Shown in pieces: positions 7,645-51,866 of a stretch of 64,000 nt of DNA. The first letter of the stretch is position 1. Each line of letters starts with the position of its first letter. Origin of the DNA: Phoenix dactylifera (lineage: Eukaryota; Streptophyta; Magnoliopsida; Arecales; Arecaceae); NCBI RefSeq assembly GCF_009389715.1, contig NC_052404.1, positions 10,176,480 through 10,240,479 of the forward strand, read 5' to 3'. The translations under genes and the position numbers were made by a program. A model generated the notes under the pieces. It did no database searches. It worked only from the letters and a program-made list of their open reading frames with translations, and was not told where the DNA came from.

Positions 7645-10600
7645 TTAGCTTTGGGAATCTTCATTTGATGAAGCTCCTTTGACTTGCATAATAACTGGAT
7701 CTGTGCTGCTGCCAGCTAAATTTTGTTTCCTTTCTGCCTGTAGTGATCGACACAAAGATTCGAGCTTCTCTTTCTGATTCTTCACTTTTTCTAGCTGTTT
7801 CTTCATAAGTTCACGCTTGAAGATGAGAAAGAAGAGTAGAATTAGTAGGATTGTCCTTTGTCAAAAGGGCGGGGAAAAATAACTGCATGCAACAGTCTTA
7901 GAACCTTTGAAAACAAACAAAATGTGAGGGCCAAACTATAAGACAAATTTCATGGTTTTCTTTAGCAGGGCAAACACACTTAATGTTAAAATCGATTTAA
8001 GAGATTTAAAAATAAAATAAGTTCTACTTGCAACTTTCAACTTCATACTCAACTCCTTGTGTTTTGGCAACAAAACCCACTCTCATGAAAATTCCCAACT
8101 TCGAATCATATGATTTTCTAACTGAAAATGGCTGTTGTAAAGAAAAAAGAAAACAAAGGCAGCCATCACATCTACACTTTGTTCGTGAAGGGCAACCCAA
8201 AATAGATGAAGCATGAGCTATCCCCTATGAATACATTTGGACTAGTAGGTTTTATTTTTACACCAGGATTTTCAGTGAGTTCTATCACATCGCTCATATT
8301 AACATTCCGTGTTAGTGTTAGAGAGAGTTAATATGTTCCTTACCAACATAAGCTTCCATATTTGATCTAGAAAAGTAACTGTTCCCATAATCTAATAAAA
8401 AGACTTGTAAGATTTGCCTAACGTCGAATCATGTATCACCCCCCTTTAAATTGGGTTCTCCACAGGTAGAAACAGGCATCAAGATTCAAGCATATATTTT
8501 TGATGTTTCACTCCTTTATTCTTCACAAATTCAAACACTAAGAAAAAAGTTTCAAGATATTATCTTCTGAATGAATAGGTTAGCTACAGATACATGCGAG
8601 AAAATATTAGATAAGAGGGCACAAATACTTGACAATTAGACTCCGAGAAGCAATAAAGGAAGTTGCATGGGTATTTTGGCAGGATATCATACATTCAAAC
8701 TGGCCGTAAATATATGAGATAAAGCTTGTACCTTGTAATTTTCCCCAAAGTACATATTATTTTTCTAGAGCATGACCAAATTTCATCATTGAGTTACCCA
8801 TTATTTTTACCGCTTCTTGATGGATACTTACTTCAGATATCAATATTAGCTTCCATATTGTATCCGTGGTGTGACTAGCTAAAAGGGTCCCATATAAATC
8901 TAAGCCCATCTGTAAGCAAAATTATGAATAGAATCCAGGTATCTGTGGAGGGAAGACAAACAGATTATTAAGTATAAAAAAAAAACTTAAAAACATAGGT
9001 ATCTGGATGATGTACGTCCAAGGAAGGTGGGATCTATCTTAGTACCATAAAAAGAAGCGGAAAACCATCTGCATTGTACTTCAACTGAGCAGGAAGTCAG
9101 AAAATGCATGAACAAATGAAGCATTGCAATTTAAAATGTAGAGGTAGATGAAGCATAATTTTCGGGGTGGAGTAGGTGTGAAGATGCTCATTCTGACAGA
9201 TCATGTATTTTTTGGAAATGATGGGAATATGACATTTCTGAAGTCATTCTTAAAGGGCCAGGACTATGGAAAGTTTCTGTGCCAGTTATACCAGCCGGCA
9301 TAACAAAACAAAACTATTGATGGTAAAAAAGAGAACACTTGCCATTGAACGACTTAGAGACCTGAAGTTTAGGTAGTCCTTTATGAAAAAGACAATCTTT
9401 CACCTTTTTTTTTGTTTACAAATTTACTTTGATACTGGTAGCATACTACCAGCAACAAAAACAGCAGATATTTACACTATAGTCAATGTAAGAAGATGAC
9501 AAAACCAACAATATTTCATGTCTAATTGACTTGGGAACCAGCAAAAAAAATGGACCAAAGTTTTTCTGCATAGCAAATACCTATTATCATTGGATTCTCA
9601 GTGGCATAGTGACTAGTGACATCTGGAGGGTTTAAAAAAACCCAAAAAACTAGCAATTGATTTTAACATGGATGCTCAGCTTACCTCCTCAACAAGCTTC
9701 ACAAGGGCAATATCTGACTTCTCACACTTGCTTTTTAAAAAATCATTCTCCTTCTTGAGTTCCTTTATCAACTTTGCCATCTGATTATATGAAGTGCCAA
9801 AGAAACAATTTTAGTTAATATATATGAGAGGAAAAGAGAGAAGATATACATAAAGTTATATCTTCAAAAAGTTTGGGTCTATTACTTCATATAAATATGA
9901 AATCCCAACTCAAAGGCAAAAATACCTTTTCCATCTCCTGCTTAAATGCTTCGAAGACCTCGTTGCTTTTTGACAAAGCTTCCTGAAGAGACAGTATACA
10001 TTTAAAAATTAGTTTTATTCCTGCTTTATCCATGCAAAAAGAAGACAACTTATCTGGCAAGCATGAGAATAATGATGCAGCTGGTGGTTTTAGATCCTAA
10101 ACATTTGGTTGCTTGATGGAAATGGTACAAATTCCAAGATAAGGATAATCAGGCTGGAAGGTGCACTTATAAGTTACATCCTACTTTTTAATGAAGGGGA
10201 TCAGGCTTTAGCCTAATCTTTCTCAAAAAGAAAAAGAGGTTACATCCTTCAACCAGTGTGCTTAGAGTTTCCTCCTCCCAGTTAATCAATTAATGCAGAA
10301 CAAGTGTGAGCCAGATGTGCTCATGCTTCCATCAATTATTCAGTAAGTGGTGCTTATTTGACGCTCATGACCTTAGACAGTGACTGACTGCCTTTTTGCC
10401 AATTCATCAAACTTTACGAATACAAAAATTTGAATTTTCGGCTAGAAATTGGGCAACATAAAAATTCCACGCCCATATGACAGTGCTGTAGAAATAAGAA
10501 TACCAAATGGATGTGCCTAATAACTAGGAATTAAGGATGACTTCTAACCTACACAACGCAATAATAGGGTACTGCAGAGCTAGAAAAGATGGTGTTTTCA

Positions 10601-13600
10601 TGTAAAAATTGTGAATAAGGAGAAGGTTCAAAATTCTTATGGAACCATAGACCTCGCACTTGGCTTGTCTGAAGAACCTTTAGATTGACAAACTTAGATA
10701 TGAAAAAGTACCTGAAATTGCTGAAATTTTTCTCCATCAGCTGCAAGCTGTAAACGCAAACTCTTCTCGGTGGCCATAAGTTGTGCAACTTGTTCAGCAT
10801 ACAATTGCATGTGGGTTTGTTCTTGAGTAGACTTCTCTTGCTGTTTTTGAATTTTCAGATCAGCAAGCTGAAGTTCCAGTGTTTTCTGTTTCAACTGTGT
10901 ATGAATTTTTTAAACAGGAAAACTAGTCAGCCTTATAATCAACATGTTAAAAATTGGTGAGAATTATAGAAGATCTTACTTTTTGGGCGAACTGTTGTTC
11001 AGAGAGAGCATATTGGTCAGCAAGATGTTTTAACTTATTTCTCAGCCTACAAGAATCTCAAAAAACTTAGTGCGGTGCAGAAGGAAACATGAGAAATATA
11101 ATGAAAGCCTAAATGAACGAAATATAGGGGGAAAAAGACATTAAAATGTCTAAAAAATGAATAACAAAGGGGAAAAAATTCCGAAGTAGCAAACACCATG
11201 GAGATTAAAAAGTCACATGAAATATACCATCATGACAGGTGCAAAATCTGTTCAAAAAGAAAGATGTTTGCTGCTGGGAAAAGAATATTCCATATTCATT
11301 ATGACTGAACTAGATATGAAACTGTCAAATATATAGCATTGAGTAAAGATAGAAGAGTGATTAAAGAAAGAAAAACAGAGAATACAACTCCAAATATTGT
11401 CTGCGTAGCAAAAAATGTTAGGAGGTTTGATGTCCCAGAAAAGTTGAGTTTTCTTCAATTTGAGATTGGAAAATAATGATAAATGCAAATTCTTTTTTTA
11501 AAAAACGAAAACTCAGCATGTCTTCCACTACGAGTCTTGGCTAATGTTAATCATGAAATGATTACAATCTACAAACCAAAACCACAGATCATGACTCTCG
11601 AGATGACTGAGGACAAGTTAGAAGGAATCTCCAAAATCATCAATTATTTTGACAGACAGACACACATCATTGAGTGAAACTGTACATCACATCAATAAAA
11701 ACACGTCAAATTATAATTTTAATAATAGGCTTTGGTCCGAGGTCCTTCATAATGACATCAAATTTTGTAATTCTCAGACCATTCTTTTAATAGATGTTCA
11801 AAAGGCTATGTGGTTCCACCCATCAAATTGACCAATTTTCTGTTACTTTTGATCCAGGAGAATCCTCAGACTTGACGCGGACCACTTTGACCACTATGAG
11901 TGGGGCTGGACAAAGTTCAAGAGCGAGATCTGCCAATCGGGAAGCCAAGTCGCCGCCAAACTTCCGGAGGCCATAACTTGGTCATACGATACTCGATTAA
12001 AATAATCTTTTTTTTTTGAAATAGAGTATCTTTTTGAGATCTACAACTAAGAGGTTGAATTGGGATGAAATTCCACCGTTACACCCCGAAATAGACCGGT
12101 CAAACCGAAAGTTTTCTTTTCGGGTAAAACTTTGATCGGGCGTAGCTCTCTATCCGATAAGAATCTGGCGGAATGACCGAAAGAAAGTTGATGTAGAAGA
12201 CGAGATATTTTAGTTTTTTTCTACTATAAATGTTTATTTTAGAAAAAAGAGTACTATTAGGATTAAAAAAAATCCGACCTAAATTGTATTAGGACGGACC
12301 TCACATTATAAATAGAGGCTATGTACCTCCTTTTTTTAAGAATTAATAAAAGAAAAGGAGATTTTAAATCCTACTTTTAAGATTTCTTATAGTTTTTTTT
12401 GGGAGATTTAAGTTGAGCGGGTTGAAAAAAAATCTTTCTTCTCCATAATTGGATCAAGTTGATATCAGAGCTTCGGTCTGCTATATCTATGGGAGCCTTT
12501 GTTCATAGTTCATACGTGTGAGCAATAGAAGCAATTAGAAGAAGGGTTATCCGTTCTTCAAGCACATCGAAGGACAAAGGCAAGTATGGCTACTAACTCT
12601 TCCTCAATGGGTGATGATGAGACAAAGGAATGTCTCATACAACTAGAAAAGAAGATTGTCCAACTCATCATGATCATCTCGAGATTGGCAATACCTTCAG
12701 CACAAGCACCAGCAACTCTTGTTGCAAAGTTGTCTCCCATGGCTCGAGATGAAGAATTACCATCCAGCGAGGAGGATGAGAATGAGCGACTTATGAGTAT
12801 GAAAAATCTCTCTTCAACCATTTAAAGTTGAGGCTCCAATCTAGATCCCTGTATATGATGGGGTTGTTAATGTGGAAAAGCTAGATAACTGGCTAGACCG
12901 GTTAGAGACATATTTTCTCCCTAATTAGATCAACTTTGTATATTGTATACGGTAAAACTTCTATTAATGATCAACAAGTATTATCCACTTCATAGTGGTG
13001 ACTAATAAATCTACTGAAAAAATACTGAAAAAATTCATGCTTAGCCAAAACAAGATGATAAAGAGTACTCTCCAAAAGTGTTAATTTAAAATGTAATTAT
13101 GAAAACATATTTTTGCTGTTAAGTATTCAATCTAAACATATTTTGTCCTTCATAAATAACATCTTACATCTCATTCTCCTTGAGTTGAGAAAGGCACTCA
13201 TCTTTCTGCTCCTCGAGCTTAATGCTTACATCCTATAACACAATGCAGAGATCGCTATTGAAATATTAGTTGCTAGAAACCCGAGAAACAATAAGAAAAG
13301 AACAATACAAATGCAAAGCAAATAATATGAAAAACTTGGAAATGGGTCAAAGGCATATGGCAAGGCAAACAGTCAATATGAAGTTGATGAGATTCTAATC
13401 AAAACATGGAGTTACCTAGTGAATTTTATGTATGCTTTTCCTCAAGTAATCTTGCAATAAAGACATACCATTTATCGACCAGTATCATCTATGTTGTTCT
13501 CCATTAAACAACAAATTGCCAGTGATGTTGCTGAAGTGAAGCAGGTAATTTAGCAGAAAATCGATCTACTAGTAAAAATGATGTCAAATAATAACCCAAC

Positions 13601-21377: not shown

Positions 21378-22828
21378 TGCCACGCCCCCGCCTCTGCGAG
21401 GCACGTGAGGCACCTAGTGCCCACGTGGGGGCCACATGAGGGGGGACCGCGGGGCTCCCCTGCCAGATATTGTCCGGTTCTGGGGCTTCACGCAAGCGTC
21501 CTTCACCCTTCCTCGGTTTTGTTTTCCACCCAAAACGCGTCTGCAGGATTAGAAGACACCCGCCTCATATGCCCAGGCTCTGGAACGAGTCTTTCCGATG
21601 TGAGACTATTGGGCCTCACACCCTTCCCACCATCGGACAAGAGCCGTCCTCGGCTCTGATACCAAATGTCACGCCCCCGCCTCTGCGAGGCACGTGAGGC
21701 ACCTAGTGCCCACGTGGAGACCACATGAGGGGGGAACACGGGGCTCCCCTGCCAGATATTGTCCGGTTCTGGGGCTTCACACAAGCGTCCTTCACCCCTC
21801 CCCGGTTTTGTTTTCCACCCAAAACGCGTCTGCAGGATTAGGAGACACCCGCCTCATATGCCCAGGCTCTAGAACGAGTCTTTCCGATGTGGGACTATTG
21901 GGTCTCACACCCTTCCCACCATCGGACAAGAGCCGTCCTCGGCTCTGATACCAAATGTCACGCCCCCGCCTCTGCGGGGCACGTGCGACTATTGGGCCTC
22001 ACACCGGTGTGAGGCCCAATAGTCCCACATCGGAAAGACTCGTTCCAGAGCCTGGGCATATGAGGCGGGTGTCTTCTAATCCTGCAGACGCGTTTTGGGT
22101 GGAAAACAAAACCGGGGAGGGGTAAAGGACGCTTGCGTGAAGCCCCAGAACCGGACAATATCTGGCAGGGGAGCCCCGCGGTCCCCCCTCATGTGGCCCC
22201 CACGTGGGCACTAGGTGCCTCACGTGCCTCGCAGAGGCGGGGGCGTGACATTTGGTATCAGAGCCGAGGACGGCTCTTGTCCGATGGTGGGAAGGGTGTG
22301 AGGCCCAATAGTCCCACATCGGAAAGACTCGTTCTAGAGCCTGGGCATATGAGGCGGGTGTCTCCTAATCCTGCAGACGCGTTTTGGGTGGAAAACAAAA
22401 CCGGGGAGGGGTGAAGGACGCTTGCGTGAAGCCCCAGAACCGGACAATATCTGGCAGGGGAGCCCCGTGTTCCCCCCTCATGTGGTCCCCACGTGGGCAC
22501 TAGGTGCCTCACGTGCCTCGCAGAGGTGGGGGCGTGACATTTGGTATCAGAGCCGAGGACGGCTCTTGTCCGATGGTAGGAAGGGTGTGAGGCCCAATAG
22601 TCCCACATCGGAAAGACTCGTTCTAGAGCCTGGGCATATGAGGCGGGTGTCTCCTAATCCTGCAGACGCGTTTTGGGTGGAAAATAAAACCGGGGAGGGG
22701 TGAAGGACGCTTGCGTGAAGCCCCAGAACCGGACAATATCTGGCAGGGGAGCCCCGCGGTCCCCCCTCATGTGGCCCCCACGTGGGCACTGGGTGCCGCA
22801 CGTGCCCCGCAGAGGCGGGGGCGTGACA
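21378..22828. mobile_element. palindromic TRIM array (five 243-bp LTRs and one LTR piece) with 5-bp target duplication
   Basis: LTRs of exactly 243 bp lie at 21378-21620 and 21667-21909 (minus orientation), and at 22008-22250, 22297-22539 and 22586-22828 (plus orientation). A short 48-bp LTR piece lies at 21956-22003. Neighbouring LTRs are separated by 46-bp internal segments holding only a primer binding site (TGGTATCAGAGC, matching initiator tRNA-Met) and a purine tract (GGTGGGAAGGG). The two arms meet head to head at CACACCGGTGTG (22000-22011). The whole block is flanked by ATGAT at 21373-21377 and 22829-22833, so it appears to have entered as one unit. It is a non-autonomous TRIM-class LTR element with no genes. 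LTR copies differ by only a few per cent, suggesting youth. Confidence 0.85.
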
Positions 22829-22839
22829 ATGATAGTTAA

Positions 22840-39000: not shown

Positions 39001-39365
39001 AATCGTAAGTGTCAACCCTTTGGTGAAAGAAGGCACATAAAGCGGACTACAAATAGTTAGGAAAAGGCTAAATAGTAATGGTTATGGTTATTGTTAACCC
39101 CCCTTTTTTCTAAAACTGACAATCTCCTCGGCTTTACTCTAGTGCAACTTATCCAAGTGACTGATTGTTTCTGCTGCATTGCAAGACTTTGAATCACCCT
39201 ACATGTTTGACACTGCAGGCAATTCAATGTCTTGGTGGCAATGGGTACGTGAATGAGTACCCAACAGGTCGTCTTCTGAGAGATGCAAAACTATTTGAGA
39301 TTGGTGCTGGGACTAGCGAAATCAGACGAATGATCATTGGTCGTGAACTTTTCAAACAAGGCTAA
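24001..39365 (+). CDS. IVD: isovaleryl-CoA dehydrogenase, mitochondrial, complete 15-exon gene
   Basis: Exons: 24001-24108, 25331-25414, 25487-25544, 26366-26490, 26582-26626, 28488-28536, 28661-28770, 31130-31206, 31503-31553, 31645-31709, 32861-33015, 33136-33176, 33270-33324, 36067-36123, 39219-39365. They sum to 1,227 bases, 408 residues plus TAA, almost the length of known plant IVDs. All introns are GT-AG. The enzyme oxidises isovaleryl-CoA to 3-methylcrotonyl-CoA in leucine breakdown and passes electrons to ETF. Residues 1-30 are Arg/Ser/Ala-rich without acids, as in a mitochondrial presequence. Acyl-CoA dehydrogenase landmarks follow: EEYGGLG, MSESNAGSD (152-160), [27 protein letters not shown] and a C-terminal GAGTSEIRR. 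Glu269 in [13 protein letters not shown] is the IVD-type catalytic base. Oddity: Ser155 replaces the usual Pro of MSEPN. Introns total about 14 kb, swollen by insertions. Poly(A) signal AATAAA lies at 39528-39533. Confidence 0.95.
26915..27750. repeat. GC-rich insertion with GGTACCGG subrepeats in IVD intron 5
   Basis: A block of much higher GC than the surrounding intron. Both edges carry degenerate palindromic subrepeats (CCGGTACC, ACCGATACCG, CCGATTC). The centre holds CT-rich leader-like sequence, then ATGGGCGATCCTCGTCAG reading [11 protein letters not shown] and a strong splice donor (GAG|GTAAGC) near 27,478. The edges show loose inverted similarity, so a TIR-type DNA transposon is possible, but I found no target duplication. 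Long frames across it on both strands are low-complexity chance frames. Confidence 0.45.
29747..29800 (+). mobile_element. possible LINE 3' tail in IVD intron 7
   Basis: TTTTTAATGAACATGGTCAGGCTTTGCC-type text ends in an A-rich run. A close relative (AATGAAGGGGATCAGGCTTTAGCC, then an A-rich tail) stands near 10,190-10,245 in a taxilin intron. A shared text before an A-rich tail suggests 3' ends of one non-LTR family. No coding part is visible. Confidence 0.3.
32037..32054. repeat. (CA)n microsatellite
   Basis: A short CA run next to TATATACATACATATATTA, in IVD intron 10. Confidence 0.8.
32160..32460 (+). repeat. diverged gypsy LTR fragment in IVD intron 10
   Basis: The order of short matches follows the LTR at 11841-12455: GGATCAtC, then TTTCGAGATCTA.AAC, GAATTCCATCGTT, GGTTAAACC, AAATTTTCTTTTTGGG and a GACTTTAACTGAGC run. 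Identity is low, so this is an old fossil copy of the same family. It has no coding part. Confidence 0.45.
33325..36066. other. IVD intron 13, 2.7 kb
   Basis: AT-rich intron. A segment near 34,160-34,260 ends in an A-rich run and could be a retroposon tail. A segment near 35,215-35,320 repeats GTATCTGTATCTGTATCTG-type text. Neither has clear boundaries. No gene is seen; the 119-codon frame at 35218-35577 lies in the repetitive part. Confidence 0.4.
37640..37664. repeat. (TG)n microsatellite
   Basis: About 24 bases of alternating TG in IVD intron 14. Confidence 0.9.
38150..38780 (-). repeat. insertion with promoter-plus-first-exon-like segment in IVD intron 14
   Basis: On the minus strand a TATA-like GGGATATAAAGGC (about 38650) is followed by a CT-rich leader. 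Then comes ATGACAACGCCGCACAACG (38,563 downward), reading [15 protein letters not shown], and a strong donor CAG|GTAAGTC near 38,518. Downstream are GA-rich tracts and a roughly 70-bp imperfect duplication (GGATC..GAGCTTTCGAA). It looks like a captured or cryptic first exon, antisense to IVD. The outer boundaries are unclear. Confidence 0.4.
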
Positions 39366-43007: not shown

Positions 43008-43492
43008 GAAAACATAAAACCACCTATGCTTGCAACATGAAGCCTGACTCATGAAAGTTCGAATCCTCTTTATTCATGTCATGAAATGGATGGTCCAAAT
43101 TCAGTTATCCACCACCATCCATCCATCAATTAGTGACAGAAGCTTGAACAGAGATACCATATATGGCCTACCTTCATTAATCCGTGATTGAACCCGACAA
43201 TTTGGATTGAATCTGAAGTGAATGAATTGGGCAGTGGTCAACACTAGACCTTCATTTTCATAGTTGCAGCCACCCTACTGAGCCTTAATTATATCGCTGC
43301 TACATTATTATGGTATCCTTCCATCCGATTCTTAAAGCTAGCCAGACTAGGTGGAGGGTCGATCCTAGATCCTTGTAGTCTGATTGGCCCATGATGGGTT
43401 TATAATGGCCACAAGATGAATGTGGAGTCAAATTTTCAATAGGAGATCTACAAAAGAAAGAAAATAGATATAAATGGGATTGGATCACATTT

Positions 43493-44490
43493 AGATATAG
43501 ATATAAATAGATATGATGGTGATTCAATAATTTTGCTATTTGTCAATCTAACTCTATAAATGGGATTGGATGCATAATTATATTTTACTGGCTCTGGAGC
43601 TCTACAAGGGCGGCTTCTTATTATATAGTAAAATAAAAGTTTGTTATGTTAATGAAATCAATAGTGGTCAATTTCCTGTATTAATATCAGTGCAACCAAC
43701 TATTAATAGCGTTAGTTAGCATACTTAAAATCTATTATAGTTATACTTATATATACATCTTGTATATACTATTGTATACACGCAATTCATATATAATTCA
43801 ATATACGGAGATTTCATCTTCTTCTTCCTCTTCTGTAATTTTTTTTTCTTAATTCGGTATCAAAGCCCACTTGTCCTTCTTGCCTGCCAAAATTTTTTTG
43901 CTTCCACTAATTAATCCACATGTCATCCCTCGTACTCTACATGTGAGAGAAGGTGTTGAAAAATAATAGTCCCACATCGGATAGGTTAAGAATTTTTGTG
44001 GTGCTTATATACTCTTAAGCCCATTTATTGAAATGCTCAGATTTTTAGATAGGTTCTTATCCATATAGAGTAATAATAAAGTGATATCCTTAGTAGTTTT
44101 ACGGATGAAAAGAGTGGAATAATAAAAACCATGAGCGAAACTAAATCGAGAGACCATAGCATTGAATTTTGCAGACCAGGCATATGGAGCTTACTTAAGA
44201 CCATATGAAGTATGACGAAGCCAGTATACCTTATTTGGTGGATGAGGTAACTTGACGGTGGCTGTATATATACTTCTTCTGAAAGATCACCATTAAGGAG
44301 GGTATTTTTGACATCCACTTCTTCTGAAAGATCACTATTAAGAAAGACATTTTTGACATTCATATGAAAAGGTGGCTATTTTCTAGAGCCACAGTAATAA
44401 GACCAAGTATGCATCCAATCCCATTTATAGAGTTAGATTGACAAATAGCAAAATTATTGAATCACCATCATATCTATTTATATCTATTTA
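43493..44490. mobile_element. Copia relic framed by inverted repeats of about 80 bp
   Basis: About 80 bases at 43493-43574 are repeated inverted at 44408-44490 with near-perfect identity (AATAATTTTGCTATTTGTCA in both). Between them lie Ty1-copia remains. There is an LTR-like promoter with a following GGTATCAAAGCC primer site near 43,855, and a second LTR-like AGTCCCACATCGG block near 43,970. On the minus strand at 44037-44363 is a reverse-transcriptase remnant with the DVKN.FLNGDLSEEVYIQPP text. The element is broken in several places and rearranged. The inverted repeats are much better preserved than the Copia parts. Confidence 0.6.
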
Positions 44491-44775
44491 TATCACAAAC
44501 AACTCTCGAGTTTGTTTAGCGAACTTCGCATCTTGGACTACTGGGTTGTTAGTGCGCACAGGCGGCGAGCCACAGAAGAAGCCTGCTTGGTTGTTCATGT
44601 CTGAATCACCATCAGGATCATCCTGAGAAGGACCAAACTTTAAAAAAGTTGGATACGAAAACTAATAAATTAAGACTAAAATATCTGTTACATGATTTTG
44701 AAGTAGACGGGTACCTTGTTCAAGATAATATCAAGGATCTCCGGACCACAATCCCCTCTATGGATAGGCAAAATG
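44488..44775 (-). pseudogene. 3'-terminal two-exon fragment of an unrecognised plant gene
   Basis: Exon 44775-44715 follows a TTTTTTTCCAG acceptor and reads ILPIHRGDCGPEILDIILNK. A 92-bp GT-AG intron separates it from exon 44622-44488, which reads DDPDGDSDMNNQAGFFCGSP then PVRTNNPVVQDAKFAKQT and ends at TAA. The two exons share a frame across the junction. The GSPP.R..NPVVQDA motif resembles the C-terminus of a plant-specific family of unknown function; this is memory of a pattern, not a search. No upstream exons are seen. It is probably a captured fragment in the CACTA-associated block, and its last codons abut the Copia-related inverted repeat. Confidence 0.5.
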
Positions 44776-46020
44776 CTGGAAAAAAATAAAACAGAATCAG
44801 GGAGATGCAACCTTGGCGCCGGCATTGTAAGAATATAACGTTGAAAAGATGAGGGCATTGCGTCATGCATGCTTTACGGGCTTTATCTCTAGCTGGTTAG
44901 TTCAAAGTCATTAACTAATATATGTTCACTGGATGCTGACTCATCTTATTGAAATCACTTTGGAGAAACATGAAAAAGAAAAAAAAGTTCCATCTGCAAT
45001 GTCAAATATACTAAGAATGACAAATAAGGTCAAAATTCAACCAGCCTTCTACTTTAATTCAAAACTATAACATGAACCAAACTGGCACAAAATTTATCAA
45101 CAATTATACGCTTTTTTCAGAAGCATTTTCACTGCACGCTGGGAGTGAGCATCAGAAGCATATTCATTGAATAAAATGTAAAATCCATCAGAAGCATTTT
45201 CACTGCACCTGAGTTGGGAGGTCCCAAGAGATCATGTATCAAACCCCTGGTGGAGAACTGATATTATTTGACTACCAAATCCATCAGAAATTGGCATCTT
45301 GCATGGAACTTGATTCTGCTCGTCCGATGGTAAGGTATAGATATCCTATAAATGAACTGTAGTGGAAGTATTGTTGTTCCAACACATAACATCATGTTGA
45401 AGATTCCTTGGAATAAATAGGCAGTGAGGAAATTAAATGGACCATATCTGAAGGAGTGGTGGTAGTAGCTGTCTTTTTGAGTCAGTTACAACTTACAAGG
45501 TTGTAAGTAGTAATTTCTCAAGGCACTCTTCCAAGAGGAACTTCACCTATCAAGCCCCAATACAGTCTTAGCTGCGCTGTCTTTTTGCCCAATAAGAACA
45601 AGTGCCCAAGAAGAATACATGAAGACAGTTCTGAAATAAAATGTTAATCACTCGATTGCAGTCATGTGAGAATTACCAAACAGCAAAATCTTCCCAGCAT
45701 TAGCCTTGCATCCAGAAAATACATCATAACAATTATAAAAATGAGAATGATGCCATAAATCTGAACACATTAGATATGAAAGGCGTGACCTCAATTGATG
45801 GAAACCTGGTCTGGAAATTTATGTTTATGTTTTCTTTACAAATTCAAGATGGACTTTACAAAAAAAGGCAGTATAATTTCAGCTATCTTACCACTACAAC
45901 CCTAGCAAACCCAACACAACACAATGAATATGTGCATGAAGAACCATGCAAAATGTAAAGCTATTCTGATTGAGGCTGGAAAAAAGACCATGGAATATTA
46001 GTTGATACATGGAAAGCTAC

Positions 46021-46475
46021 CTTGGTAAGTGTTGCTATTCCACTCATTCTTTGCATAAAATTGAGGGCAACCCTTTCTGCCACAATAATGCTGCATGCAC
46101 ATCCTTAACATAACAAATAAAAAGAAAAATAAACAAGCATTCTTATGAGTATAATCAAAAGACCAAGTCATGTTATAATCTAAATTTTTACCATATACTT
46201 TGCCAAACTGCATGCCTTTGTGAACATAGTTTCCATCTTTCTGAGACCATTCAACCTATCAAATTATCCAGAAAAATTCTGCTGAATGAAACTAGCGAGC
46301 ATTATATTGAATCTTGGAGAATTTATAGCAAGGAGTTATACCTTTAATGATGGATCAACCTCATTAAAAATCATCTCTGCAAAAGAAATTCCAGCAATGA
46401 CCCCATCCTCCTTTGCAATGAAGTGGGCTTCTGCTTTCATGTCCACCGGAACAGTGGCTAAACAAGTTACATCCC
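46021..46475 (-). pseudogene. QPT: internal three-exon fragment of quinolinate phosphoribosyltransferase
   Basis: Exons 46475-46342, 46255-46192 and 46090-46021 have good GT-AG sites and join in frame. They read [56 protein letters not shown] and [20 protein letters not shown]. This is the N-terminal and hinge part of nicotinate-nucleotide pyrophosphorylase (carboxylating), the plastid enzyme that makes nicotinate mononucleotide from quinolinate for NAD. The catalytic barrel (the ETRKTAPGLR region onward) and the true 5' exons are absent. The fragment cannot be a working enzyme. The open frame and intact splice sites suggest a young capture. Confidence 0.85.
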
Positions 46476-47261
46476 CTGTCTCAATACAAAGAAAACAATA
46501 AGCTAGATAATCGTCATACAAGTTCTGCAGGACTTCCACTGCAAAATATTGTGCAAATATTCCACTCAAGAACAGAGTGAGAAGAATTTGAAGACCCCAA
46601 ACCATACTTTCCCTGGTAGTTGAATTTGTTACTGTACTTGCTATTAAAGCACCCTACCACCTTCACTCTTCCCCCTACTGGAAGTGTTTCAAATGGACTA
46701 CACACTATAAAAATTAATTTATTGACTAGAAGTAATGATAAATACCGTAGAGCACTTACATAGAAAATCTGAACAAGGATGAAACGTAAGAAGGAATAAA
46801 GTGCTAAAGCTGCTTTATGGTCGCAAAGACTCTGTGAACTTAATTTTTCACATTGATCAGGTAATATCCACATCAGGGTTGGGATGACTGCAGACTTTAG
46901 TGTAAATAAACTGCACAGAAAAAAGAAGCTAACAGTAAATAAATCGCAAACACATAAAAATTAACAAAGTAGCTGTACAGGTATCAGCTCAACCCCCTGT
47001 ATGACTATAACTCGTTAACCATTAACTACAAGAAACACGAGATTAGATTGCTGTCGAGTGCAAATAAAATAGCACATAGATATCACGAAAATTAATGCTT
47101 GGGACAAATGCCCATTGTTTCACAACCAAAAAAGAAGTTTAATGAAAGAAAGAATTTGACCAGTGCCAAGAAAACCATCTTTGATAACCAATGTTTTCAT
47201 TTCTGTTTGGTTTTCTTCAATAATCTAAAGAGATAACCACTTTTAAGAAACGAGAGAAGAA

Positions 47262-47803
47262 GAAGGGAACCGGAGTGCGAGGTCGACGGTGGCGGGGAAG
47301 CGAGATGGGGAGGCGATGGATTAATGTCGGCGCGGGACGCCGATCGGAGCTCGGAAAGCGAGATGGGGAGGCGATGGATTGATGTCGGCGCGGGGACGAT
47401 GATCGGAGCTCGGGAAGCGAGATGGGAGGCGATCGGAGCTCGGGGACGCCGATCGGAGCTCGGGAAGCGAGATGGAGAGGCGATCGGAGCTCGAGGACGC
47501 CGATCGGAGCTCGGGAAGCGAGATGGAGAGGAGAGGAGATGGGGACCCTTTTGAATGAGAGGAGAGGAGACGAGACGAGACTTTTTAAGGCAGAGAGGGT
47601 TGGAAAGGATTTGGCCTACGACGACGCTTATAAGCGTCGTCGTAGGTCCAGCTTACCGCGACGCTTAAAAGCGTCGTCTATTCTAATGATGTACCGACGC
47701 TTTTAAAAAGCGTCGGTAAAATTTGGCGCTGATCAAAACTATCCCGACGCTTTTCCCTAGCGTCGGGAAAAAAGCGTCGGAAAATGTACCTTTTCCTGTA
47801 GTG
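47262..47803 (-). mobile_element. CACTA transposon terminus with subterminal palindromes
   Basis: Read on the minus strand from 47803 the end is CACTACAGGAAAAGG. Several copies of CCGACGC/GCGTCGG follow in inverted pairs: 47742-47767, 47691-47718, and a perfect 32-bp palindrome at 47615-47646 (arms CCTACGACGACGCTTA). This is the layout of En/Spm-type subterminal regions. Further in (47281-47540) a GA-rich tract carries tandem copies of GATCGGAGCTCGGGAAGCGA spaced about 30-60 bp. The opposite terminus (CACTACAGG on the plus strand) was not found to the left, down to 39 kb. Confidence 0.7.
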
Positions 47804-48629
47804 AATGTATGTTACTTCTCATTTCAATAAAAGCACCCAATAATTCACACTTCTTCGATGTTTATTATCTAGCCCCTTTGGTTTTCACAGCAATACTCAC
47901 ATGTCATGCCAACTTAAAACAATCATGGCCAGTCCCAATCATGATAGGAAAGGTAAAAGTTTGCCATTAGGTTCACAGCCAGTTGTTAAAAAAAAAAAAA
48001 ATCCAAACTATCAAATGGATCCAAATTTGATATTCACAACTGCAAGTGCATCACTTGTTTTATCTAAAGGTAGTGCTAAATAGAAATGCTTGGAAAAAGA
48101 GGATTAAATAGAAATGCTTGCAAGTGCATCACCAATCATTATGAACCATCACCAAGCTTATTGGAGGCAACTGAGCCTCACAGTGTCAAACCAACAACAG
48201 GGAGCAAATCTATTGTATTTTATTGGCATCATAATACTTAGGTACAATATTTAGGCACAATGGCATTCCTTACAAACCATAAGCTTTACTTTGCACAGAC
48301 TAATCCTCTTTTTTTTTTCTTCAGTTTTTTTCTCTATTTAAACTTACAGATTCTGGACAACAGTAACAAAAAAAGCTAAACATCTATTAAAAAGCAAGCA
48401 AGAAAGAAAGACCACGAATACTCCTATCCAAAACTAGATTAGAAAAATCAGCATCATCATTCCTCAAACATATTTTTTCCCATAAGATTATTGTCTAATC
48501 AAGGTAAGCACGTGTGAATAGTATATTAATGTGAAATTCAAGAGAGAGAAGAGGGAAAACAGTCTATAAACCCTGTAGCATAGAAAGATGCGGTTGGTTA
48601 ATCCAGAACTATTAGGGCGAGCCAGATAC

Positions 48630-49381
48630 CTGATTTCTATAAGGATAGATGTACTCTGAAGTGAGCTCCATGTATTTGCATTTCATGATCCCTGCTGGAC
48701 CTCCCTTGAATCCGTACAGCGTGCTCCCCTTGGCTCGATCCTGCAAGTAATCTACCATGACGACAAAAAAGATGAGGAAACCAAGAAATTAATCCATCAC
48801 ACAATCAACCAAAAGCACACCAAAAAAAAAATCATCCATGACCACAAAAGGATATAGAAAGAAATCAATCAATCAATAAGGGGTAAAAATCCAAAAGAAA
48901 CAATGAAACGAAGCGCTCACCAAAGATCCCAGAGATGACATTGTGCCCACCGGGAGCCTGGCCTCCAGAGAGCACCACTCCGACCTTAAGACTCCCAGCC
49001 ATCTCCGAAGGAGCGGAACCCGTCGGAACTAGCGTGGCGGAGGGCTGGCCGAAAAGATTAGGAAACAGCTTCTTGATCTCATCTGCAATCGATATCGTCA
49101 CAAGCATGACAATCAAAACACAGACCATCATTGGCCTCAGATCGATCGATATAGATCTCAATCAAGTCATAAGGGGGAGAGAGAAAACAGGGGAGACAGA
49201 TACCGGGGTTCCCGGCGGCGGAGCTCAGAGGGCCGTCCACGATCTTGAAGGGTCCCCTAACGACGGAGGGGAGGGGGAGGGAGTGGTTGAGGCGGCTAGT
49301 CTGCACCTCGCTGTACACCGCCGCGAGGCGGCCGGGCGACGGCCCCTTGCCGCCGTTGGCGAGGATGGAGTTCGCAGCCAT
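48630..49381 (-). pseudogene. 5' fragment (exons 1-3) of PFP beta subunit
   Basis: Exons 49381-49204, 49082-48921 and 48751-48630 join in frame to 154 residues. They match the start of pyrophosphate-fructose 6-phosphate 1-phosphotransferase beta: MAANSILANGGKGPSPGRLA, VYSEVQTSRLNHSLPLPSV, EIKKLFPNLFGQPSATLVPT, VGVVLSGGQAPGGHNVISGI and GSTLYGFKGGPAGIMK. The beta subunit is the catalytic subunit of this cytosolic glycolytic enzyme. The GGQAPGGHN nucleotide/pyrophosphate loop is present, but the remaining ~400 residues are missing. After exon 3 only intron-like sequence runs to the CACTA end at 47803. The fragment includes its own TATA box at 49461-49469. A CACTA end at 49823 lies about 440 bp upstream, so it appears captured. 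Confidence 0.85.
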
Positions 49382-49460
49382 CCGCGGAGATCGAGAAAGA
49401 TGATGAGATGAGAGCAAGCGACGGAGAAGATATATCACTTTGTATAGTGTGCTTACAGTC

Positions 49461-49469
49461 CTTTTATAG
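49461..49469 (-). promoter_or_regulatory. TATA box of the PFP beta fragment
   Basis: On the minus strand, CTATAAAAG lies about 80 bp upstream of the PFP beta start codon. The captured piece therefore includes the parent promoter core and could still be transcribed. Confidence 0.5.
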
Positions 49470-49509
49470 CAGGGGGAGAGGGAGCAGGGTGGGATCGGTT
49501 AGGGTTATC

Positions 49510-49823
49510 GTCACGGAGATTCAGGGGGTGAGGGAGAAAGTCTAGGGCTCAAGCCTCGAGCTATGAACCACCAGTTATATGAGCGGAGGTGAGGCAACGC
49601 TCGATCTATGAACCGGAGAGGAGGGAGGAGGCTTGAGGGAGAATCGGGAGGCGGAGAGGCGGAGAGGCGGAAATGCTTCCAGGCTAGGGATCGATCGGGA
49701 GAGGAGGAAGCTACCGACGCTTCTTTGAAGCGTGAGGACATGTGGCGCTTGGGGTATTTTTTCCCGACGCTAGTGAATAGCGTCGGCAAAAAAGGGTCGG
49801 CTTTTCCCACATTTCCTGTAGTG
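49510..49823 (-). mobile_element. second CACTA terminus
   Basis: Read on the minus strand from 49823 the end is CACTACAGGAAATGTGGG. Inverted GCGTCGG copies follow (GCCGACGCTATTCACTAGCGTCGG near 49,765-49,790, and GAAGCGTCGGTAGC near 49,715), then a CT-rich tract. It has the same orientation as the end at 47803, so the two are not the two ends of one element. Its mate was not found in the window. Confidence 0.65.
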
Positions 49824-51022: not shown

Positions 51023-51866
51023 CTGTCGGCAATAACACCACTTTGGTACTTACAACCCCACCACCTTTCCATGCATGACAAGACATCCCATTTTAACACC
51101 ATTATTTGGAGACTGCCAAATACCAGAAAAGCTGAAGATCTTCAGCTGGCTGTGTTACTACAACAAAATTGCCACTGCTGAAAAAGAAGCTAAGGGACCT
51201 GACTCATGTCCGCTCTGCTGTAACCGTAATGAAACAGTAGATCATTTGCTGCTGGGGTGTAAGTACTCAAAGCAACTCCGGCAGCTCCAGCTTCATTATT
51301 AAGACCTATGGAATGATCGGAGATCGTCCAACCCCACGAAGGAGATGATACTAGCAGTGGACTGCTTGATATTCATAGGCTCTTGGTGTATCTGGATGGA
51401 ATGGAAACAACAGTGTTTTGATTGAAGTCTTTCAGGAGAAGTAGGGAAACTGGTGGCATTCCTACTTAGAGAGTAGAGACTAACTGAAAATTAAAGGACA
51501 GTTCACAGTTGATATGAGAAGCCATCGCCTAATTGTAGCAAGAAGGGTGGAAAGCAAAGAAGGAACATCAAGGCACTGAAGGACATGTCTTCATCAGTCG
51601 CTTTTCTCTACGTAATCAGGGTGTTGGTTTAGTCTCGCGAGGAGCCTCTCCCTCCAACGAAGGGACGGAGCCATGCACCATGCCGCCTAAAACCCGTCAT
51701 CTAATTACGATGACGTGCAGAAGGAGAAGCGGACAAACTTGCTTTCTAGGCCTGTAAATACCCAGTGACATACCTCTCGATGTAAGATTAACTGATTAAT
51801 AAATATAATGTGGGAGAAGTATGCTCCTTAATTCCTCCATTCTAGATCAGAAAAAAAAAAAAAAAA
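51023..51866 (+). mobile_element. 5'-truncated L1-type LINE with poly(A)
   Basis: The frame from about 51085 reads FGDCQIPEKLKIFSWLCYYN and then GPDSCPLCCNRNETVDHLLL GC. This is the zinc-binding segment at the end of plant L1 reverse transcriptase (CxxC...HxxxxxC). After one stop it continues LIFIGSWCIWMEWKQQCFD, also typical. About 430 bp of 3' untranslated sequence and an A run (51851-51866) follow. A possible 8-bp duplication ATCATCCA occurs at 51015-51022 and 51866-51873, which would set the 5' end at 51023. The element is degraded, so it is old. Confidence 0.7.

Follow-up and report, generated by a model that had tools for sequence, protein, structure and literature searches.

Plant transposons of the CACTA superfamily are known to capture pieces of host genes. 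In the soybean wp allele, Tgm-Express1 is a 5.7-kb CACTA element that lies inside a gene and carries pieces of five host genes; chimeric transcripts were detected by RT-PCR, with exon skipping (PMC1947982). Likewise, two further studies describe CACTA-captured genes in wheat 3B (PMC4290129) and host genic regions captured by Tpn1 elements of Ipomoea (PMC5105172). For Pack-CACTA elements, the proposed route is one of closely spaced tandem insertions followed by terminal deletions (PMC13317346), with local same-orientation insertions that are remobilised from their outer TIRs (PMC8903248).

Here, we describe a locus in a 64-kb window (the whole stretch of DNA analyzed, without a single ambiguous base) whose closest precedents are Tgm-Express1 and the Pack-CACTA elements. 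Like Tgm-Express1, it belongs with the CACTA superfamily and holds intron and exon pieces of unrelated host genes that are still spliceable; unlike Tgm-Express1, a complete element with transcripts shown by RT-PCR, it contains no complete element. As in Pack-CACTA elements, CACTA TIRs adjoin host coding DNA and neighboring ends share one orientation, but where those elements have their TIRs and target-site duplication, this locus shows a pair of 5′ ends for which we found no convincing 3′ counterpart. The wheat 3B and Ipomoea Tpn1 elements, some of whose captured pieces are transcribed or chimeric (PMC4290129, PMC5105172), are alike in the capture of gene pieces by a CACTA transposon and differ in host and family. 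The locus is most likely a further case of this known kind of capture. A first-pass annotation had presented the assembly of three genes as unusual; given precedents in several plants, it is most likely gene-fragment capture of the ordinary kind. The features of the block are as follows, from high to low coordinates.

49712-49823, minus strand: 5′ end of CACTA element A, with TIR CACTACAGGAAA exact at 49823-49812 and hairpin subterminal repeats.
49468-49461, minus strand: PFP beta TATA box, TATAAAAG, 5′ of the ATG at 49381.
49381-49204, minus strand: PFP beta exon 1 with the ATG, after a leader; GT/AG splice sites.
49082-48921, minus strand: PFP beta exon 2; GT/AG splice sites, PDB and tblastn matches.
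48751-48630, minus strand: PFP beta exon 3; phase-0 end at a GT donor, PDB and tblastn matches.
47612-47803, minus strand: 5′ end of CACTA element B, with TIR CACTACAGGAAA exact at 47803-47792 and hairpin subterminal repeats.
47295-47531, no strand: GC-rich array with a repeat unit of ∼51 bp; it separates the end of B from the QPT exons.
46475 or 46479 to 46342, minus strand: QPT internal exon a, with acceptor CAG/G (46475) or GAG/A (46479).
46255-46192, minus strand: QPT internal exon b; splice sites, PDB and tblastn matches.
46103-46021, minus strand: QPT internal exon c; phase-0 end, splice sites, PDB and tblastn matches.
44775-44715, minus strand: putative exon T1; splice signals only, no family match.
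44637-44488, minus strand: putative exon T2; splice signal and open frame, no family match; ends with TAA at 44490-44488.
43492-44492, no strand: decayed Copia-like tract adjoining the low-coordinate edge of the block (RVT_2, E 0.0021, under the curated cut-off).

Both CACTA ends, which had been annotated at 49823 and 47803, proved sound. The 12-bp TIR is exact in each, and each has the CACTA start and subterminal repeats by which termini of the superfamily are recognized. CGACGCT/AGCGTCG occurs 13 times in the window, and 12 of these occurrences fall within two stretches beside the two ends. Aligned with each other, the ends are 69% identical (78/113 columns), and on this comparison they are the ends of related yet distinct elements. 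They face the same way. All three pieces lie inward of end A; of these, QPT and the third piece also lie inward of end B, whereas PFP beta is on the outer side of B. Host coding DNA, as expected of a Pack-CACTA element, therefore lies inside a TIR (PFP and QPT for A, QPT for B). A literature search on TIR CACTACAGGAAA returned nothing relevant, one on CACTA elements with gene fragments together with oil palm returned no such capture, judged by title, and none was found that joined QPT with a transposon and PFP. A CACTA-end pattern, searched for in viral contigs, matched one stretch (L001), which we regard as a chance match: it had no blastn match to the window (E 1) and was phage-like by eye.

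The two ends do not bound an element: both point in one direction, and a search of the window by pattern, motif, alignment, and flanks gave no convincing end of the opposite orientation. The search combined the TIR pattern, motif positions, local alignment of both termini on both strands, and comparison of flanks. TIR-like strings (CACTACAGGAAA with up to two mismatches, both strands) numbered 15 against 6.2 expected, a count reached by none of 100 shuffles. The subterminal motif was counted only at the two exact ends and at the five plus-strand TIR-like strings, which have two mismatches each and lie at 1476, 34647, 39211, 42303, and 47024. Within the next 250 bp, GACGC/GCGTC occurred 1, 0, 0, 0, and 0 times at these strings, respectively, compared to 3 times at A and 9 times at B. 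The 3-bp flanks of the exact ends are AGA (A) and AAT (B), and neither triplet flanks any of the five strings. Local alignment of the termini yielded self and hairpin matches and otherwise low-scoring noise.

One string deserves separate mention. That at 47024 differs by one mismatch from CACTACAAGAAA and may represent the eroded 3′ terminus of a B element of no more than ∼780 bp, in which case QPT would be A's alone. We set this candidate aside provisionally because its flank is ATT where AAT is needed and no subterminal motif occurs in 250 bp.

Two inverted TIRs around the host DNA were thus not found in the window, and so we do not class the locus as a Pack-CACTA element. Among other gene-capturing transposons, Pack-MULEs enclose the captured DNA in long TIRs, and Helitrons have a 5′ TC end, a 3′ hairpin-CTRR end, and an AT target. 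In an ungapped search for inverted pairs from 34 to 58 kb, the only pairs that enclose the block (I7 and I8) have 22-nt A/T-rich arms, which are not the long TIRs of a Pack-MULE. An 88-nt pair (I1), 97% complementary, forms the arms of the Copia-like tract, which also share 80 bp at 100%, and lies beside the block, not around it.

We then turned to the host-derived pieces. Splicing of PFP beta exons 1 to 3 gives an open frame of 154 aa from the ATG, which we take to be about the first quarter of the full protein. Its product matched the PPi-dependent phosphofructokinase 1kzh in PDB (E 1.5e-20) and, weakly and under the cut-off, the PFK profile of Pfam (E 0.0051); exon 1 on its own had no Pfam match. 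QPT exons a to c make up 95 codons with acceptor 46479 and cover the entire QRPTase_N profile (Pfam E 5e-23), that is, the N-terminal domain profile only, and the product matched solved QPTs in PDB (best E 2.7e-16). With these matches, their coordinates, the open frames, and GT/AG introns, the 5′ PFP beta exons with their TATA box and the middle QPT exons of the first-pass annotation are confirmed. Judged by these genes, the host is presumably a plant.

When complete PFP beta and QPT proteins of plants served as tblastn queries, each of the six known exons of the window was hit with an E of at most 1.5e-19, and there were five additional hits at E 0.6 to 9.8; no further convincing PFP beta or QPT exon was found in the 64 kb with these queries. 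Since the introns of both pieces are kept, the copies derive from DNA and not from mRNA. The PFP and QPT frames contain no nonsense codon over 249 codons. With an assumed transition share of 2/3, zero stops are expected at the 5% level for neutral sequence up to ∼0.16 substitutions per site, so selection is not demonstrated, and we rejected the stop-free frames as proof of it, this being too weak a test. The open frames are compatible with either youth or constraint.

The third piece is less clear. T1 and T2 share a common frame, but neither the spliced T1+T2 peptide nor the T2 frame matched Pfam (the latter in a scan of ten selected frames of the window, which also covered the Copia-like tract and the neighboring genes), and the best PDB match had an E of 0.25. 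A pattern built on this piece had two matches in viral contigs, neither of them a relative, and no literature text on the fragment was found. A similar plant motif may exist, on which we do not rely. The open stretch of the piece, 44661-44491, is 57 aa long and unremarkable, as the window contains 430 stop-free stretches of at least 50 aa. In addition, the TAA of T2 lies inside a microsatellite of 10-bp period (44470-44494) next to the Copia-like tract, and hence this stop codon probably did not come with a captured gene. Of the proposed 3′ exons of a third gene, then, the splice signals and open frame stand, while their identity as a gene is putative, and the claim of a borrowed end with its stop is not supported.

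Together, these results point to two truncated CACTA elements with transduplicated host gene DNA, now decaying, an explanation that we consider probable. It rests on the exact TIRs with subterminal repeats, the lack of a convincing opposite end, the kept introns, the absence of further convincing PFP or QPT exons from the window, the frame outcomes given below, and the precedents. Against it count the unexplained surplus of TIR-like strings, the possible 3′ end of a short B at 47024, the PFP and QPT frames that are still open, and the long in-frame chimeras that some splice forms would give. A and B would be related CACTA elements, presumably non-autonomous and in the same orientation, with B beside or inside A. 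A would have acquired the 5′ PFP beta piece with its promoter and introns by transduplication at the DNA level, and B, or A if B is a short insertion, would have acquired the middle piece of QPT and perhaps the third piece. The 3′ ends of both would since have been lost, most simply through one deletion or rearrangement with a breakpoint near the Copia-like tract at ∼44488. Closely spaced same-orientation insertions with subsequent terminal deletions would fit the same-facing ends, and a nested pair that later underwent a single deletion would fit them equally well. We infer the capture by CACTA elements, the order of events, the truncation, and the lack of function; the exons, introns, TIRs and their orientation are observed. 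As neither a 3′ end nor a target-site duplication was found, the gene pieces are not proven to have been moved as parts of one transposon. CACTA-associated capture of more than one host gene, as first annotated, is the reading that we prefer, and close precedents for it exist, but a single element and a third gene are not supported. If the capture reading is true, host gene DNA lies inward of each of two adjacent CACTA ends that share one orientation, the arrangement from which multi-gene Pack elements originate in the local-hopping model (PMC13317346, PMC8903248). It would be one more example and would introduce no new principle.

The same-facing ends without 3′ ends, and the presence of several unrelated pieces, could also be accounted for if PFP, QPT, and other pieces were filler DNA, copied into breaks near CACTA insertions, with the CACTA elements associated with the pieces and not their carrier. 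A remark in the wheat 3B study on CACTA gene duplication by double-strand-break repair lends this some plausibility (PMC4290129). However, the PFP TATA box lies inside end A, 244 bp from the subterminal repeats of A, as cargo would; this is not decisive, and we regard filler DNA as a rather unlikely source of the block.

A further alternative is a new chimeric gene, in which the PFP promoter and start lead into the QPT exons and the last exon, with a protein under selection or an RNA of regulatory function as the product. The TATA box and ATG, the GT/AG sites, and the 249 codons free of nonsense all speak for it, as do the predicted three-part frames given below. When every exon is joined through the consensus-like acceptor 46475, the frame reads GM and stops directly after PFP, at 156 codons. 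Joined through the weak acceptor 46479 (GAG is a poor splice acceptor), it stays in frame through QPT and ends with HFAYP and a stop in the next exon, at 254 codons. No frame was found open from the borrowed start to the borrowed stop through all parts. Among 188 exon combinations that start at PFP exon 1 and contain QPT or third-piece exons, 14 ran on to the last stop; QPT exons were present in 12 of these, and T1 was skipped in every one. The longest three-part frame has 298 codons (acceptor 46479, T1 skipped); another of 256 codons uses acceptor 46475 and skips PFP exon 3 and T1, and one of 252 codons uses ordinary sites only and skips QPT exon a and T1. A predicted three-part frame is thus possible but not the default, and of the chimeric read-through in the first-pass annotation what stands are in-frame forms that depend on exon skipping, comparable to the skipping documented in Tgm-Express1.

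By analogy with that element, transcription of the locus, with splicing at its captured sites, is possible. Against a chimeric gene stand the early stops of the all-exon joins, the position of the final stop inside a microsatellite, the neutral divergence with which the lack of stops is compatible, and the small extent of the PFP and QPT pieces. We therefore consider such a gene quite improbable, and the locus is most likely not a functional one. There is a very slim chance that the two same-facing CACTA elements gave rise to a transcribed, alternatively spliced three-part gene that makes a protein or small RNAs against PFP and QPT; it would consist of the PFP promoter and N-terminus, the N-terminal domain of QPT, and a new C-terminal tail, with at most 298 codons (T1 skipped). 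A hairpin-type source of small RNA was rejected, as self-comparison at E 1e-5 gave no inverted copy of the exons.

An assembly error, or a misjoin of real PFP and QPT genes, is highly improbable. This is the scenario that the first-pass annotation named as its own refutation. Nothing was found in its favor; the 64 kb contain no ambiguous base and, beyond the six exons, no convincing PFP or QPT exon, although a misjoin would be compatible with both observations.

The block is set among genes and repeats of other kinds, as follows.

7648-7860 and 10697-10909, minus strand: taxilin-like exons (Pfam; the match of 7648-7860 is under the curated cut-off).
39165-39362, plus strand: exon for the C terminus of an acyl-CoA dehydrogenase (Pfam E 3e-13), on one flank of the block.
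51036-51299, plus strand: zf-RVT match (Pfam E 6.3e-10) of a retroelement, probably a LINE.
56546-54309, minus strand: L-type lectin receptor kinase, an open frame of 746 aa with Lectin_legB and Pkinase, on the other flank of the block.

The acyl-CoA dehydrogenase exon is probably isovaleryl-CoA dehydrogenase-like. Scans of the window with Rfam (at gathering thresholds) and for tRNAs gave no matches. Farther from the block, at 21378-22833, we noted two tandem arrays of 289-bp units, which are mutually inverted and ∼96 to 97% alike.
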